64,000 nt of DNA from Falsiroseomonas stagni DSM 19981 (lineage in GTDB: Bacteria > Pseudomonadota > Alphaproteobacteria > Acetobacterales > Acetobacteraceae): positions 124,001-188,000 of the forward strand of contig NZ_FOSQ01000010.1 in the NCBI RefSeq assembly GCF_900114315.1, written 5' to 3'. The notes below the pieces were generated by a model. That model had not been told where the DNA came from and searched no databases. It saw only the letters and a list, made by a program, of their open reading frames with translations. Position numbers and translations under genes: made by a program. Below are positions 27,136-32,783 of this stretch, in pieces; the stretch's first letter is position 1, and each line of letters starts with the position of its first letter.

Positions 27136-27423
27136 TCAGCCGCCGCCCGAGGAGGAGGAGCCCCCGAAGCCGCTGCGGGCGGAGGAACCGCCATGGCTGA
27201 CGCTATCGGTGGCGGAGGAGGTCCGGCCGCTGAACCAGGAGCGGGAGAAGGAGGAGGAGGAACGCGACGTGCTGCGCTGGCAGATCTGCTCCGCGTTGGG
27301 GCGCAGTTCCGCCCGCGCCCGCGCGCATTCCTGGGCGCGGGCATCATCGTCGCCGCAGGCTGCGAGCAGGGTGGTCACACCGCCCCCGAGGAGCACCAGG
27401 CGCAGGGCTTTGGTTCGTCTCAC
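27136..27423 (-). CDS. YgiB-like small lipoprotein
   Basis: 95 residues from a GTG at 27423. The N terminus is a lipoprotein signal (RLVLLGGGVTTLLAACGDDD) with the lipobox Cys. The C-terminal half is very rich in Ser and Gly (GGSSARSGFGGSSSSGGG), as in the YgiB family (DUF1190), although it is shorter than E. coli YgiB. It ends two bases before the YgiC-type start. Its place at the head of a ygiC-DUF350 operon supports the assignment. Confidence 0.75.
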   Translation of the reverse strand: MRRTKALRLVLLGGGVTTLLAACGDDDARAQECARARAELRPNAEQICQRSTSRSSSSFSRSWFSGRTSSATDSVSHGGSSARSGFGGSSSSGGG

Positions 27424-27468
27424 GCGGGGAGCGTAACAGCGCCCCGCGCCGCTGGCGAAGCCTTTCCG

Positions 27469-28353
27469 CTACCGCCGCGACGGCCTCCGGGCAGGCCAGG
27501 TCGCCAGCAGCATGCTGCCCGTCAACAGAACAAAACCCGCGGCATGGGTGGCGGTGAAGGCCTCTCCCAGGAAGAAGATGGCGACGAGGGCGGAGGTCGC
27601 GGGCAGGAAGGCCGTGAAGACGCCGGCGATGCCCGCCGGTGCGCGTCTGATGCCCTGGTACCAGAGCAGGAGGCACAGGACAGAAGCCGTCAGAGAATGG
27701 AAGACCAGCAGCCCCGCCGTCGCGGGTTCCGTCAGCGCCACCACGGCGCCCGCCACCGGGATGCAGAAGGGCAGCAGCATCAGCGCGGAGAACACCTGCA
27801 TCCAGAGGCTGGCGGTGACGACCGGCGCATGGCCCGCCAGGCGCTTGGCGAGCAGCACATAGAGCGCTTCCCCGCACACGCCGCCGAAGACGAGGAGATT
27901 GCCGATCACGCTGCCATGCGCGCCATCGCTGCCGAGCCGCGCCAGCGTGATCGCCGCCATGCCGAAGGCGGCCAGCGCCACCGCCGCCCATTGCCGCGGC
28001 GGCAGCCTTTCCCGCAGCCACAAGGCGCTGCCGATGGCGACGACGGCGGGCAGCGTCGCCAGCACGAGCCCCGCTTCCAGCGCCGTGGTCAGCCGGAGGC
28101 CGGCCAGCAGCCCCGCATTGTAGATGACCGTGCCGAAGAAGGCCTGGAGTGCCAGGTTCCACAGGCCGCGCCGCTGGATGCGCGGCAGGCCCTCCATGGC
28201 TTTCGCCAGCGGCCACAGCACCAGCACGGCCAGCGCGCAGCGCAGGCCCGCGATCATGGGGATGGGCAGGTCCGCCGCCAGCAGCTTCGCCACGCCCACA
28301 TTGGCGCCGACGAACGCCATGGACAGCGCCAGCTGGAAATAGGCGAGGAGCAC
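27469..28353 (-). CDS. EamA/DMT-superfamily transporter
   Basis: 294 residues from GTG 28353 with ten hydrophobic segments in two EamA repeats (about 1-135 and 150-285). The family pattern is seen in GLRCALAVLVLWP near the second helix and in GVFTAFLPATSALVAIFFLGEAF (in part), where a conserved Pro and Glu end repeat two. EamA carriers export metabolites such as amino acids; the substrate is unknown. It is 45 bases from the YgiB-like start and 45 from the DUF482 gene, all on the same strand. Confidence 0.88.
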   Translation of the reverse strand: MLLAYFQLALSMAFVGANVGVAKLLAADLPIPMIAGLRCALAVLVLWPLAKAMEGLPRIQRRGLWNLALQAFFGTVIYNAGLLAGLRLTTALEAGLVLATLPAVVAIGSALWLRERLPPRQWAAVALAAFGMAAITLARLGSDGAHGSVIGNLLVFGGVCGEALYVLLAKRLAGHAPVVTASLWMQVFSALMLLPFCIPVAGAVVALTEPATAGLLVFHSLTASVLCLLLWYQGIRRAPAGIAGVFTAFLPATSALVAIFFLGEAFTATHAAGFVLLTGSMLLATWPARRPSRR

Positions 28354-28398
28354 GGGGCGGAGCCTACACCCGTTCGAGGGGTTCCTAGAAGCCGCCGC

Positions 28399-29562
28399 TC
28401 AGCCTTCGCCATCCCTCTTGAAGGGCGACATTTCCGCGAGTGCCCCGATCTCCCGCATCATCGCGGGGCGTTCCTGGGCCAGGAAATCATCCACCGCGCG
28501 GCGCAACCCGCGATGTTCGATCCAATGCGCGGAATAGGTCGGCACGGGCAGGTAGCCGCGCTGGATCTTGTGCTCGCCCTGGGCGCCGGCCTCCACGCGG
28601 GGCAGCTTGTGCTCGATGGCGAAATCGATGGCGCGGTAGTAGCAGAGCTCGAAATGCAGGAAGGGGGCGTCCACCAGGCAGCCCCAGTTGCGGCCATACA
28701 GCGCATCCTGCCCCAGCAGGTTCAGCGCGCCGGCGACGGGTTCCCCATCCTGCTCCGCCACCATCAGCACGACCCTGTCGCCGAGCCTTTCGCCCAGCAG
28801 CGGCCAGAAGGATTTTTTCAAGTACGCGCTGCGGCCCCATTTCTTGTCGGAGGTGGAGACGTAGAAACGATGAAACGCCTCCCAGTGCCGGGGCGTGATC
28901 TCATGCCCGCGCAGGGTCTTGCAGACGAAGCCGGAGGCTTCGGCATCGCGCCGCTCCCGCTTGATCTGCTTCCGCTTGCGGGATGCCAGCGCGGCCAGGA
29001 AGTCGTCGAAGGTCCCGTAGCCCGCATTGGTCCAGTGGAACTGCGTGCCGATGCGTTGCAGCCAGCCCGCCTGGCCCAGCGCCTCCCACTCCCGCGCCTC
29101 GCAGAAGGTGACGTGGATGGAGGAGAGGTCGAGCTGCCCGCAGGCCTGCACCAGCCCCTGGGCCAGCGCCTCCACCCCGATCCCCGCGCCTTCGCGAACC
29201 AGCAGCCGCGGGCCGGGCACCGGGCTGAAGGGGGCGGCCACCTGGAGCTTCGGATAGTAGCGGCCGCCCGCACGCTCGAAGGCATCCGCCCAGCCATGGT
29301 CGAAGACGTACTCGCCCTGGCTGTGCGTCTTCGCATACATCGGCGCGCAGGCCAGCAGCCGCCCGCCATCGTCGCGCAGCGCCGCATGCTGCGGCAGCCA
29401 CCCCGTCCGCGGCCCCACGCTGCCCGATTCCTCCAGCGCGAGGAGGAAGGCGTGGCTGACGAAGGGATTCCCCGGCCCCGCGCAGGCATCCCAGTCCGGC
29501 GCGGGGATGTCCGCGATGGAGGGATGGAGCGAAAGGCTCAGGGATGGCGCCGTGTCGGGCAT
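28399..29562 (-). CDS. DUF482 / FemAB-like GNAT-fold protein
   Basis: 387 residues. The sequence matches the family annotated as peptidogalycan biosynthesis protein (DUF482): PFVSHAFLLALEESGSVG at the N terminus, CAPMYAKTHSQGEYVFDHGW, LASRKRKQIKRERRDA, and GRNWGCLVDAPFLHFELCYY. The second half has the GNAT acyl-CoA fold with VAGALNLLGQDALYGRNWG. A wall-related aminoacyl or acyl transfer is the family inference, and no substrate has been assigned. The ATG follows TGGAG. It is 42 bases from ridA upstream. Confidence 0.87.
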   Translation of the reverse strand: MPDTAPSLSLSLHPSIADIPAPDWDACAGPGNPFVSHAFLLALEESGSVGPRTGWLPQHAALRDDGGRLLACAPMYAKTHSQGEYVFDHGWADAFERAGGRYYPKLQVAAPFSPVPGPRLLVREGAGIGVEALAQGLVQACGQLDLSSIHVTFCEAREWEALGQAGWLQRIGTQFHWTNAGYGTFDDFLAALASRKRKQIKRERRDAEASGFVCKTLRGHEITPRHWEAFHRFYVSTSDKKWGRSAYLKKSFWPLLGERLGDRVVLMVAEQDGEPVAGALNLLGQDALYGRNWGCLVDAPFLHFELCYYRAIDFAIEHKLPRVEAGAQGEHKIQRGYLPVPTYSAHWIEHRGLRRAVDDFLAQERPAMMREIGALAEMSPFKRDGEG

Positions 29563-29604
29563 GCGACTCCAGTTTGGGGCGGGGTGGCGATGCTCAAGAC
29601 GGCC

Positions 29605-30072
29605 TCAGGCGATCTCGAACATCCCTTCCACTTCCACCGCGGCATCGGCGGGCAGGGACGGCACGCCGATGGTGGTGCGCGCATGGCGCCCGGCTTCCCC
29701 GAACACGGCGACCGCCAGGTCGGAAGCGCCGTTCATCACCACCGCGTGCTGCGTGAAGTCCGGCCCCGCCGCGATGAAGCCGCCGAGGCGCACCACGCGC
29801 TTCACGCGATCCAGGTCCCCGCCGCAGGCGGCCTTCACCTGCGCCACCAGGTTGATGAAGCAGACCCGCGCCGCTTCCTGCCCCTGTTCGATGGAAACGC
29901 CAGCGCCGACCTTGCCGGTGAAGGCGACCTTGCCATCCACGAAGGGGATCTGGCCGGAGACGACCAGCAGATTCCCCACGATGTTGTAGGCGATGTAGTT
30001 CGCCACCGGCGCGGCCGGCACCGGCAGCGTGATGCCGAGCTTCGCGAGGTTGCCTTCGATCGTTCCAGCCAT
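29605..30072 (-). CDS. RidA family protein
   Basis: 155 residues of the YjgF/YER057c/UK114 fold. RidA removes reactive enamine/imine intermediates produced by PLP enzymes. The conserved Arg that binds the carboxylate is in HARTTIGVPSLPADAAVEVEG, the family C-terminal block. N-terminal LLVVSGQIPFVDGKVAFTGKV also fits. At 155 residues it is longer than archetypal RidA (about 128 aa) and belongs to a RidA-related group with an extra N-terminal helix. The ATG follows GGAGA. Confidence 0.92.
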   Translation of the reverse strand: MAGTIEGNLAKLGITLPVPAAPVANYIAYNIVGNLLVVSGQIPFVDGKVAFTGKVGAGVSIEQGQEAARVCFINLVAQVKAACGGDLDRVKRVVRLGGFIAAGPDFTQHAVVMNGASDLAVAVFGEAGRHARTTIGVPSLPADAAVEVEGMFEIA

Positions 30073-30126
30073 GGCGCGGTCTCCGTTCTTGCCGGGCGGG
30101 AGACTGCGTCGGCTGGGCGGAAAACG

Positions 30127-31659
30127 CTACCCGACCAGCTTGAACTGCCGGCGGCGCGTGCGCGGCGCCGGGGAGGCCGGCAGGTCCATCGGAAGCAGCG
30201 GCGCCTGTTCGGCGGCATGCCCCGTGGCATCGGGCGCGCAATCCTCTTCCGAGGGATCGGCCAGGTCGCGCCGGCCGAGATAGTCCAGCGCCAGCCGCCG
30301 GAAGGCCCAGTCGAGCACCGAGGTCGCGCGGCGGATCGCCGGGTCGCCCTCCACCGCGCCGGCGGGGCCGAAGCGGGTATAGGCGTGGGCCTCCACGTAA
30401 TGGTCCAGCGCCACGCCGTACTGCAGCCCGATGGAGACGGAATGCAGCATCGCATCCATCAGGCTGCGATAGGCCGCACCTTCCTTGGTCAGCGCGATCG
30501 AGACCTCGGACAGCTTGCCGGCGCCGTCCTCCGTGGTGCGGAGCACGACCTTGTGGCCGCCGACCGAGACGCGCCAAACGCTGCCGCCCGGCCGCGTCGG
30601 CAGCCCGGTGGCGCGGGCGGGCAGGGGCGCGGGGGCGCTGGCCGGCGCGGCGCTGGCGAGCGGCATCGGCGGCGCGACATGCAGGAAGGGCGCGATGGCC
30701 TGCGCCATGGCGATCCAGGTCGAATCGGGGGCGGGGGCGAGGAGGCGCTCGGCCTCCGCCCGGCCGAGGCGGAGCGCGGCGCGGGTCGGCACCTCCGCCA
30801 CCCAGCCCTCGCGGTCCAGCGACAGGCGCGTCGGCCCACTGGCCGGGGCCAGGCCGCCGATCTCCGCGCCCAGCAGGCGTTCCACCGCATCCGGGGCGGC
30901 GAGGGCGACCAGCGCCTGGTGCCGCAGGCCGAGGCTGCCGGCCGCTTCATCGAGCGCGGCGCGGGCGGCGGCGGCCAGGCCCGGCACGACGGTCGCTTCG
31001 GGCGGGGAGGGGGCGATCAGCGCCACCGGCTCCCGCGCGCCAAGGCGCTCCGCGATCCGGCCCGACTCGGCCTCTGCCGCGCCGCGGGTCAGGGCGGCGA
31101 TGGCGGCGCCGACGGCGCGGGCCTCCGCGGAATCATAGGAAAGGCCCAGGCCCGCCAGCAGGCCGGCGAGGTCGGCGAAGCCGATCGACAGGCGGGGCGA
31201 CTTCGCGCCCGTCCAGATGTCCAGCATCCGGACGCCGACCGCGACGGCGGCGGCATAGGCGCCGGCATCGAAGCCGCCTTCCGCATCCAGGAAGGCCGGC
31301 AGGTTCAGCACGAAGCGGCTGGCGGAGCGGGCATCGCCGCGCCAGATGGCGAGCCCCGGCGCCGCCGCGCGCGCCAGAAGCAGGCCGCGCAGCGCATGGG
31401 CCATGCGATCCCCTTCCGCCGCATCGGCCAGGATGCCGAGCTGGCGGCCGCGGGTGACGAGGGGCGCGATCCAGCCCTCCGCCAGGCGGGGCAGGGCGAC
31501 CGGGGCGTGGCCCGGGGCGATGGCGGCAATGGCCTCCGCCGCTTCCTCATCCCAGGAGACGGGGAGGGCGACGGCGCGGGGCTTCGAATCCGGGTCCGGC
31601 GCGGCGCGGGTGCGCCACAGAGCCATTCCGTCCCAGATCGTCCCGGCCAAGCTTGTCAT
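30127..31659 (-). CDS. Shortened NrdJ (class II ribonucleotide reductase)-derived protein
   Basis: 510 residues behind AAGGTGG. Three blocks align by eye with adenosylcobalamin-dependent reductase NrdJ. They are an N-terminal RAVALPVSWDEEAAEAIAA; a middle block with VLNLPAFLDAEGGFDAGAY, VRMLDI and LAGLLAGLGLSYDSAEARAV (about 115-220); and a C-terminal block VGGHKVVLRTTED, KEGAAYRSLMDAMLHSVSIG, LQYGVALDHYVEAHAYTRFG, RRATSVLDWAFRRLALDYLG (about 365-465). The central catalytic barrel with the C-x-E radical cysteine is absent, the CNLAS-type cysteine is lost, and there is no C-terminal CxxC finger; only one Cys remains. It cannot reduce ribonucleotides, so a regulatory or structural role is inferred. 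Confidence 0.8.
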   Translation of the reverse strand: MTSLAGTIWDGMALWRTRAAPDPDSKPRAVALPVSWDEEAAEAIAAIAPGHAPVALPRLAEGWIAPLVTRGRQLGILADAAEGDRMAHALRGLLLARAAAPGLAIWRGDARSASRFVLNLPAFLDAEGGFDAGAYAAAVAVGVRMLDIWTGAKSPRLSIGFADLAGLLAGLGLSYDSAEARAVGAAIAALTRGAAEAESGRIAERLGAREPVALIAPSPPEATVVPGLAAAARAALDEAAGSLGLRHQALVALAAPDAVERLLGAEIGGLAPASGPTRLSLDREGWVAEVPTRAALRLGRAEAERLLAPAPDSTWIAMAQAIAPFLHVAPPMPLASAAPASAPAPLPARATGLPTRPGGSVWRVSVGGHKVVLRTTEDGAGKLSEVSIALTKEGAAYRSLMDAMLHSVSIGLQYGVALDHYVEAHAYTRFGPAGAVEGDPAIRRATSVLDWAFRRLALDYLGRRDLADPSEEDCAPDATGHAAEQAPLLPMDLPASPAPRTRRRQFKLVG

Positions 31660-31873
31660 ACCGCCACCTTAGGGGCCCTCGGGCCGGGACGGAAGCCGTA
31701 TGTGGTGGTGTTGCGGCGCCGGAACCGCAACATCCTGTGGACAGAATCGGTGACACGCATCGGCTCCGCGGATTTTGCGCGGCGGGCCCCATTGTGCGAA
31801 ACTGCCGACGTCCGCACATGGCGGGCCGGCCTCCCCCAGGCCGTCCCCCCTTGGGCCGCTGCGAGGATCTCCG
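31660..31873. promoter_or_regulatory. Divergent region, NrdJ-derived gene / NDUFA12
   Basis: 214 bases between divergent starts. It contains a perfect 8-bp inverted repeat, TGTTGCGG (31709-31716) and CCGCAACA (31725-31732), with an 8-base loop. CCTGTGGACAGAATC follows just downstream. No convincing -10/-35 pair was found. The palindrome may be an operator for either gene. Confidence 0.4.
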
Positions 31874-32230
31874 ATGTCGGTGCTGCTGCGCCTCACCTCC
31901 GCCCTGTCCGGCCGCAAGATCGGCACGGACCGCTTCGGCAACGCCTATTACGAGTCCAAGGCCGATTACCGTGCCTATGGCCGCAAGCGCCGCTGGGTGC
32001 TGTTCGCCGGTGCGGCGGAAGCCACCAAGGTGCCGCCGGAATGGCATGGCTGGCTGCATCACACCGCGCCGGCGCCGCTGCCGGAGACGAAGCGCCATGC
32101 CTGGATGCTGGACCACCAGCCCAACCAGACCGGCACGGCCAATGCCTATCGCCCCGCCGGGCACGACTATGCCGGTGGCCGCCGCGCCGTGACGACCGGC
32201 GACTACGAGGCATGGACCCCCGGCACCTGA
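31874..32230 (+). CDS. NADH:ubiquinone oxidoreductase subunit NDUFA12 family protein
   Basis: 118 residues from the ATG at 31874 (GAGGATC upstream). The block DRFGNAYYESKADYRAYGRK, then RRWVLF and PPEWHGWLHHT, is the B17.2/NDUFA12 signature. This is an accessory subunit of complex I in alphaproteobacteria and mitochondria, bound to the matrix arm. As usual in alphaproteobacteria it is not with the nuo operon but next to mlaD, DUF2155, aat and acc genes. Confidence 0.96.
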   Translation: MSVLLRLTSALSGRKIGTDRFGNAYYESKADYRAYGRKRRWVLFAGAAEATKVPPEWHGWLHHTAPAPLPETKRHAWMLDHQPNQTGTANAYRPAGHDYAGGRRAVTTGDYEAWTPGT

Positions 32231-32258
32231 TGCGGGACCGCAGGCAGGACCCCTCCGC

Positions 32259-32783
32259 ATGAAGGGCCGTTCGATCGCCGAGGTCATGGCCGGCGCCGTG
32301 GTGCTGCTGGTGGCCGCCGGCTTCCTTCTCTTCGCCGTCACCAATAGCGGCCGGACGACCATGTCCGGGCCGGCGCTGACGCTGACCGCCAAGTTCGACC
32401 GGATCGACGGGCTGGCCCCCGGGGCGGATGTGCGCATCGCCGGCGTGAAGGTGGGCTCCATCACCGGCCAACGGATCGATCCGCAGAGCTTCCTGGCCGT
32501 GCTGACCATGCGCATCGATGGCAGCCTGCGCATCCCCTCCGACAGCTCCGCGGAGATCGCGAGCGAGGGGCTGCTGGGCGGGCGCTTCGTCTCCCTGGTG
32601 CCGGGCGGGTCGGAGCGGATGCTGCGGGACGGGGGGGAGATCACCATCACCCAATCCGCGATCAGCCTGGAAAGCCTGCTGGGACGATTCATCTTCTCCA
32701 TGACCCAGGGGTCCTCCTCCTCCCCGGGCGCCCAGTCCCCTGGGGCACAGGCACCGGAAGGCGCCGCCACGCCCCGGCCATGA
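32259..32783 (+). CDS. mlaD: MlaD-type MCE domain lipid transport protein
   Basis: 174 residues. One N-terminal membrane helix (AEVMAGAVVLLVAAGFLLFA) is followed by an MCE domain: KFDRIDGLAPGADVRIAGVK, GSITGQRIDPQSF and ASEGLLGGRFVSLVPGG. MlaD forms the periplasmic hexamer of the phospholipid transport system that keeps outer-membrane asymmetry. The Pro/Ser/Ala-rich C terminus is flexible. The ATPase and permease (mlaF, mlaE) are not adjacent here. Its TGA overlaps the next start (ATGA). Confidence 0.92.
   Translation: MKGRSIAEVMAGAVVLLVAAGFLLFAVTNSGRTTMSGPALTLTAKFDRIDGLAPGADVRIAGVKVGSITGQRIDPQSFLAVLTMRIDGSLRIPSDSSAEIASEGLLGGRFVSLVPGGSERMLRDGGEITITQSAISLESLLGRFIFSMTQGSSSSPGAQSPGAQAPEGAATPRP

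Follow-up and report, generated by a model that had tools for sequence, protein, structure and literature searches.

An apparently dead descendant of class II ribonucleotide reductase retained in the Acetobacteraceae

Ribonucleotide reductase is essential, and its gene is expected to vanish once the enzyme has been replaced. The closest described relative of the gene analyzed here is the class II reductase NrdJ with a long C-terminus (PRK07562/NF005736; structures 7b9p and 7b9q). The C-termini of long class II NrdJ proteins are predicted to contain an IscU-like domain, a possible oligomerisation module (PMC9669993, section 8), and according to PMC5704485 the Stackebrandtia NrdJ without its cysteine-rich C-terminal domain remains a monomer with dATP. 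Section 8 of PMC9669993 also covers split class II reductases, in which the non-catalytic NrdJb has its IscU-like domain apart from the active barrel, carries a zinc finger and pairs with NrdJa. Inactive large chains are also found in betaherpesviruses (HCMV UL45, HHV-6B); these are reported to have lost catalysis and to work by binding other proteins, acting on host signalling.

The gene described here, referred to as pseudo-NrdJ, resembles long NrdJ in the order of its blocks, half of the barrel fold, the TSCPD domain and, in some alphaproteobacteria, the locus. It differs from NrdJ in having 510 rather than about 1200 residues, in lacking the barrel's first half as well as the catalytic and redox cysteines, the phosphate loops and the zinc ribbon, and in having a family-specific tail of its own. 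Like NrdJb it is non-catalytic, but it has no ribbon, usually has no NrdJ in the same genome, and carries a dead half-barrel. The betaherpesvirus homologues are viral, whereas this protein is bacterial, of class II descent, and apparently decayed in place family-wide. MCMV M45 is another inactive betaherpesvirus homologue of the large subunit. The TSCPD family itself (PF12637) is matched over its cut-off, and the domain makes up only about a fifth of the protein. No description of the gene was found in the literature searched, and 'ribonucleotide' occurs 0 times in the main text available for PMC10715153.

Composition of the gene and its match to NrdJ

The window analyzed is the whole 64,000-nucleotide stretch of Falsiroseomonas stagni DSM 19981 (contig NZ_FOSQ01000010.1, positions 124,001 to 188,000), and coordinates are given within it. 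The features of the locus are as follows.

28399..29562, minus: FemAB_like gene, next in the row (PF04339; synteny)
29605..30072, minus: RidA/YjgF-family gene directly downstream of pseudo-NrdJ (PF14588/PF01042)
30127..31659, minus: pseudo-NrdJ gene, 510 codons plus stop; intact frame, ATG start
30130..30156, minus: tail motif 2, RRRQFKLVG, residues 502-510, an RRxLRLV-like end
30130..30243, minus: C-terminal tail, residues 473-510, where NrdJ continues to its zinc ribbon (pLDDT <50 at 480-510)
30178..30201, minus: tail motif 1, PLLPMDLP, residues 487-494, a pattern of dead-form tails
30244..30597, minus: TSCPD (IscU-like) domain, residues 355-472 (PF12637; hhalign E 4.3e-48; pLDDT 94.7)
30598..30654, minus: Pro/Ala-rich variable linker, residues 336-354 (pLDDT <50 at 335-356; identity 0.25)
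30655..31029, minus: barrel block 2, residues 211-335, at the place of NrdJ PTGT, GIEP and QPFI (alignment; hhalign P 0.0024 alone)
31030..31314, minus: barrel block 1, residues 116-210, corresponding to NrdJ 'NLxxF ... LGLGYANIGGLLM ... YDS' (PF02867; hhalign; 7b9q/7b9p match)
31315..31659, minus: N-terminal cap, residues 1-115, with APGLAIWRG for NrdJ APNSPQWFN (alignment; hhalign P 0.0098 alone)
31664..31670, minus: Shine-Dalgarno-like AAGGTGG, 4 nt before the ATG (read from the sequence)
31829..32230, plus: NDUFA12-family gene, divergent neighbor (synteny; start codon a guess)
32259..32783, plus: MlaD gene, part of the conserved locus (synteny)

The preliminary description had recognized an intact gene of 510 codons with a ribosome site, and the ATG start and upstream AAGGTGG agree with this; the strand, absent from that description, is minus. 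A genome search found this single match in the host. Within the window, pseudo-NrdJ and the RidA-family gene form a same-strand pair (29605-31659). The plus strand carries a 1689-codon open frame (27193-32262) antisense to several genes, which is probably a high-GC artefact.

Sequence models matched both NrdJ and the TSCPD family. The Pfam TSCPD model (PF12637) covered residues 365-458 (E 2.7e-6; 28.0 bits, cut-off 22.8), and the reductase barrel model (PF02867) aligned residues 118-207 to positions 232-334 of its 523 (E 1.7e-5), at a score of 24.1 that is 0.2 bits over the cut-off of 23.9. The NCBIfam NrdJ model PRK07562 scored 172 bits in two stretches, far below its cut-off of 1737, and the sole PDB entries found by sequence were 7b9p and 7b9q, a vitamin-B12-dependent reductase. 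These matches, together with the dN/dS values given below, ruled out a chance or frame artefact. In profile-profile comparison (hhalign) against 13 full-length NrdJ proteins, residues 116-481 aligned colinearly (E 5.4e-59), with residues 96-215 (E 1.1e-15) and 355-475 also matching separately; residues 1-115 and 205-335 were weak alone, yet colinear with NrdJ and bridged by the longer dead form of G210. Assignment of the N-terminal cap is supported by this G210 homologue (287.7 bits to the NrdJ model), because it aligns there to the NrdJ N-terminus, with VRIDRVF for MRIxRxF and APCAPLWSA for APNSPQWFN. The earlier reading of a truncated NrdJ with its blocks in the right order was therefore borne out by colinear profile alignment and by structure comparison, with the cap and residues 205-335 weak on their own.

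The blocks of the short form are, in order, the cap, the strand after TACNLAS, the LGLGYANIGG helix region, the former PTGT/GIEP region, the QPFI segment, the linker and the TSCPD domain. Alignment with full-length NrdJ placed a large deletion directly after the cap, at APNSPQWFN, with the first half of the barrel gone. Among short forms the TSCPD domain was the best conserved part, with a mean pairwise identity of 0.56 compared with 0.25 for the linker, and it was 43-54% identical to the TSCPD domain of NrdJ.

The AlphaFold2 model of pseudo-NrdJ had a mean pLDDT of 81 and a pTM of 0.64; pLDDT fell below 50 in the linker and at both ends of the chain (residues 1-8 and the last 31). When it was compared with the PDB by Foldseek, the first 24 rows were the R. 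sphaeroides and T. maritima NrdJ structures (best 7b9q, E 2.7e-9), at a TM-score on the query of about 0.3, as expected of half a barrel. The structural prediction proposed in the preliminary description thus yielded a modeled half-barrel for which class II NrdJ structures rank first. With the TSCPD domain modeled alone, no Foldseek row against the PDB reached E 0.001; 12 of the first 50 rows were IscU or IscU-containing complexes, the best of them at E 0.36, which is not significant. These rows would agree with the IscU-like prediction of PMC9669993, section 8. At the top of the list for this model stood two rows of T7 gp1.2 in complex with E. coli dGTPase, whose E-values of 0.17 and 0.20 are likewise not significant.

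The catalytic core and redox cysteines, said at the outset to be missing, were searched for as text in unaligned sequences. Seven motifs (NxCxE, HAC[FV], ACNLA, PTGT, SPQWFN, GSG[TV]G and CxxC) were present in 13 of 13 full-length NrdJ proteins, and none was found in 34 distinct short forms or in 4 longer dead frames. Thus the thiyl-radical cysteine of the finger loop (N-x-C-x-E), the redox cysteine pair (HAC[FV], ACNLA) and the substrate-phosphate loop (PTGT) were each absent from all 34 short forms and all 4 longer frames. The zinc ribbon was a gap in 20 of 20 aligned short forms, a count from an alignment, used for the first model as well, that sets the first ~95 residues against the wrong part of NrdJ; other alignments gave the better register, and the motif search was repeated on unaligned sequences. 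CxxC was found in 0 of the 34. The best cysteine column among 27 diverse short forms was occupied in 12. The sole cysteine of the host protein, C474, lies outside the TSCPD domain, so that domain has none of the cluster-ligand cysteines of an IscU-like Fe-S scaffold. Nucleotide binding, suggested earlier, is unlikely in the manner of NrdJ, since PTGT, SPQWFN, GSGTG and the NPCSE finger loop were absent from 34 of 34 short forms.

Distribution, locus and descent

The preliminary description treated the gene from the sequence of a single genome; with more genomes compared, it proved to occur across the family, to be under selection and to occupy an ancestral nrdJ locus. Every one of 35 same-family genomes had a match, in some of them broken up between contigs. 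The 150 genomes next drawn from the order all fell in the host's family and included the host itself; 145 of them, from 39 of 41 genus codes, matched. The five genomes for which both the sequence and the profile search were empty were G061 and four genomes of g57, which indicates that the gene is dispensable there. Three further family genomes had been left empty by the search with the NrdJ model; the profile search found a match in G273, and none in G215 and G237, which are 82-84% complete.

Across the class, 192 of 289 genomes drawn matched the profile. Among the matches listed in this draw, the short form at full length occurred only in the family members G000, G059 and G060; other families mostly had NrdJ frames of ~1170-1370 aa matching around the TSCPD domain, and shorter frames were seen there in G468 (918 aa), G433 (812), G350 (852), G477 (1062), G470 (1059) and G450 (325, at a contig start), and in an earlier genome search in G042 (282). 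A mobile origin was disfavored by the ancestral locus and by the finding that 0 of 3 phage and 0 of 16 plasmid records matched more than 80% of the query; in the records listed, 3 of 3 phage and 10 of 16 plasmid, similarity was confined to residue 353 onward.

Gene neighborhoods were counted in loci longer than 5500 bases with a short-form match above 150 bits (n = 42, with L046 and L130 identical). NDUFA12 and/or MlaD was divergent from the short form in 40 of these loci, and RidA was on the same strand in 38, within 311 bases in 37. Full-length nrdJ had a divergent NDUFA12 gene in 6 of 21 alphaproteobacterial loci (L056, L057, L058, L059, L074 and L075), part of which also had a divergent MlaD or DUF2155 gene, and L058 had RidA and FemAB_like genes downstream as well. 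These neighbors were not found at the other 15 full-length loci, 13 of which are from Rhizobium. Because pseudo-NrdJ occupies the same locus as full-length nrdJ in some alphaproteobacteria, it appears to have decayed in place.

In a tree of 66 rows, from which duplicates, fragments and distant NrdJ proteins had been left out, all 49 dead forms made up one clade near the alphaproteobacterial NrdJ, with a support of 100/100 from a bootstrap that had not settled and with L127 and L116 on long branches. This single clade and the shared locus are consistent with catalysis having been lost once, in place. The homologues come in stages of about 1200, up to 800 and about 500 aa. The three g54/g81 homologues are without TSCPD domain and tail and keep other parts of the barrel (the C-lobe), and the longer G210 form keeps both C-lobe and TSCPD domain, so that trimming followed more than one route. 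The nested position of these longer forms in the tree would require deletions in parallel, or else it reflects a long-branch effect. L133, L134 and L135 hold dead NrdJ homologues at the same locus, without TSCPD domain and tail and with a C-terminal barrel lobe. A kinship with the 'ribonucleotide reductase-like protein' PRK06948 was also considered and set aside; the two hits examined, L084 and L090, score above the NrdJ_Z cut-off and resemble normal class II enzymes rather than dead forms.

Selection and the reductases of the same genomes

The dN/dS of pseudo-NrdJ was 0.11, 0.15 and 0.17 against the three closest relatives and 0.26-0.38 in comparisons with five more distant ones, two of which gave a value above 1 for the linker. 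The neighboring genes gave 0.06-0.22 (RidA), 0.15-0.18 (FemAB_like) and 0.04-0.29 (MlaD), so that in the closest pairs pseudo-NrdJ is constrained about as much as FemAB_like and less than RidA and MlaD. These values and the intact frame are not those of a pseudogene with a broken frame or relaxed selection. A slowly decaying, functionless relic caught before its loss would account for the several stages of shrinkage, for the five genomes of 150 with no match, and for loci such as L104, where pseudo-NrdJ is 43% identical as against 67-69% for FemAB_like and RidA. This explanation is disfavored and rather improbable, given the purifying selection, the breadth of retention (145 of 150 family genomes), an internal stop in one piece only (G166) among the matches listed, and a family-specific tail motif kept in 50 of 56 tails. 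Taken together, pseudo-NrdJ is almost certainly a dead descendant of NrdJ maintained by selection.

The host genome contains a class I NrdAB reductase, whose NrdA has no ATP-cone by Pfam, and full-length NrdJ was not found in it. NrdB was present in 56 of 58 family genomes sampled; the exceptions, G218 and G263, belong to one genus (g100). Among the matches listed for 150 family genomes, these two were also the only ones to exceed the NrdJ model cut-off, a strict threshold that none of 14 control genomes reaches. Their NrdJ proteins had all six motifs tested, none of the ancestral neighbors and a place outside the dead clade, and in both genomes the dead gene is still in its old position next to NDUFA12 and MlaD. 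The regions concerned, L118 (G218:C58:44000-57000) and L120 (G263:C83:94000-107000), carry an intact NrdJ off the ancestral locus and no NrdB match. These genomes have apparently switched back from a class I to a class II reductase. G210 encodes an additional class II-type reductase of 825 aa (L138 526-3003, minus) with NPCGE, APTGT and C-terminal CxxC pairs, and in several genomes of the family similar frames of ~760-930 aa give matches to the NrdJ model.

These data bear on two regulatory explanations. The co-occurrence with full-length nrdJ put forward in the preliminary description as a check was seen, over the strict cut-off and among the matches listed, in 2 of 150 genomes, which leaves its proposed regulator of true NrdJ poorly supported. 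The broader proposal of a nucleotide- or cobalamin-binding protein or NrdJ regulator agrees with an ancestral enzyme that binds nucleotides and cobalamin, and with the identity of the two TSCPD domains; the phosphate-loop, effector-loop and catalytic motifs searched are nevertheless missing from all 34 short forms and the host has no NrdJ, which makes it highly improbable. A regulator or assembly partner of class I NrdAB, standing in for the absent ATP-cone, is also unlikely, although less so. The sole ATP-cone match in the host is a 154-aa frame of NrdR size, a lone ATP-cone match is the rule in the family (55 of 58 genomes), and according to PMC5704485 the C-terminal domain took part in dATP-responsive oligomers of a NrdJ. 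Against a partner of this kind, four of the five genomes without pseudo-NrdJ have no second ATP-cone (G118 has one), and across the 58 genomes compensation for the missing cone was not supported. The first half of the reductase barrel, which carries the effector and dimer regions, is deleted here, and both g100 genomes keep the dead gene with no NrdB match. Persistence of the remnant with either reductase speaks against a regulator of NrdAB or of NrdJ.

Tail motifs and possible function

Tails were compared as unique sequences of 12-110 residues, after removal of four rows that were NrdJ of other phyla. Motif 1, with the pattern P-x-LP[LM]-x-[LIFVM]-P, was found in 50 of 56 dead-form tails and in none of the full-length NrdJ tails printed. 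The RRxLRLV-like end, motif 2, was found in 54 of 56 and may be inherited from the NrdJ stretch after the TSCPD domain, for example NLYLVRGG in L059. The sequence LPLDLP resembles clamp-binding motifs of the QLxLxL/F kind, and alphaproteobacterial HdaA has QLPLDLP. A replisome-linked adaptor with a variant sliding-clamp-binding motif, which would be a special case of a scaffold, could also draw on a reading one step earlier, where the host tail reads QAPLL and Q-x-P-x-L occurs in 22 of 56 tails, and on the ELPLF (G210) and SLSLPF (G198) of divergent members at about the place of the motif. It is very unlikely, however: in the LPLxL register none of the 50 tails with motif 1 has Q at the glutamine place, in the earlier register 20 of 50 do and the others have R, E, A, P and so on, and the g54/g81 forms are without the motif.

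The preferred explanation is a pseudoenzyme that decayed in place and was kept as a protein-interaction adaptor or scaffold. As a whole this statement is probable; the evolutionary part is well supported, and the role is inferred. In an ancestor within the family, the nrdJ at this locus lost its zinc ribbon and the first half of its barrel, everything between SPQWFN and the far end of the TACNLAS region. It also lost its catalytic residues, and in most descendants, nearly all of which have NrdAB, purifying selection has maintained it at the original position. The parts left that could make contacts are the cap helices, the half-barrel, the TSCPD domain and the linear-motif tail. A role in protein contact is proposed because the protein has lost the active site, the phosphate loops and the redox cysteines and retains the half-barrel, the TSCPD domain and the conserved tail. 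The TSCPD domain might self-associate, as has been proposed for it in NrdJ oligomers, and a partner might be bound by the tail motifs. That the TSCPD domain and tail are the working parts is possible, although somewhat short of probable, and since the g54/g81 forms have neither, these two parts are not the whole function everywhere. The retained function could go back to the original NrdJ, as a task apart from catalysis, or could have arisen later; in both cases it would be independent of the reductase in use.

A remnant at the position where relatives keep a working enzyme suggests that it has another job. Whether this is a new protein family, a pseudoenzyme carved from the organism's own ribonucleotide reductase and kept family-wide for a function independent of dNTP synthesis, is evenly balanced. 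The remnant isolates the little-understood TSCPD/IscU-like domain from catalysis, and the two genomes that again use a class II enzyme and still carry the dead gene are a natural experiment separating the role of the remnant from the reductase used. In annotation, a genome could be wrongly credited with B12-dependent DNA synthesis when NrdJ models are matched only in part. A replaced reductase that has lost its chemistry and yet is kept in 145 of 150 genomes marks either a hidden non-catalytic role of NrdJ or a recruitment; if it is indeed such a new family, either the original NrdJ already performed a further task besides catalysis or its wreck was later taken up as an adaptor.
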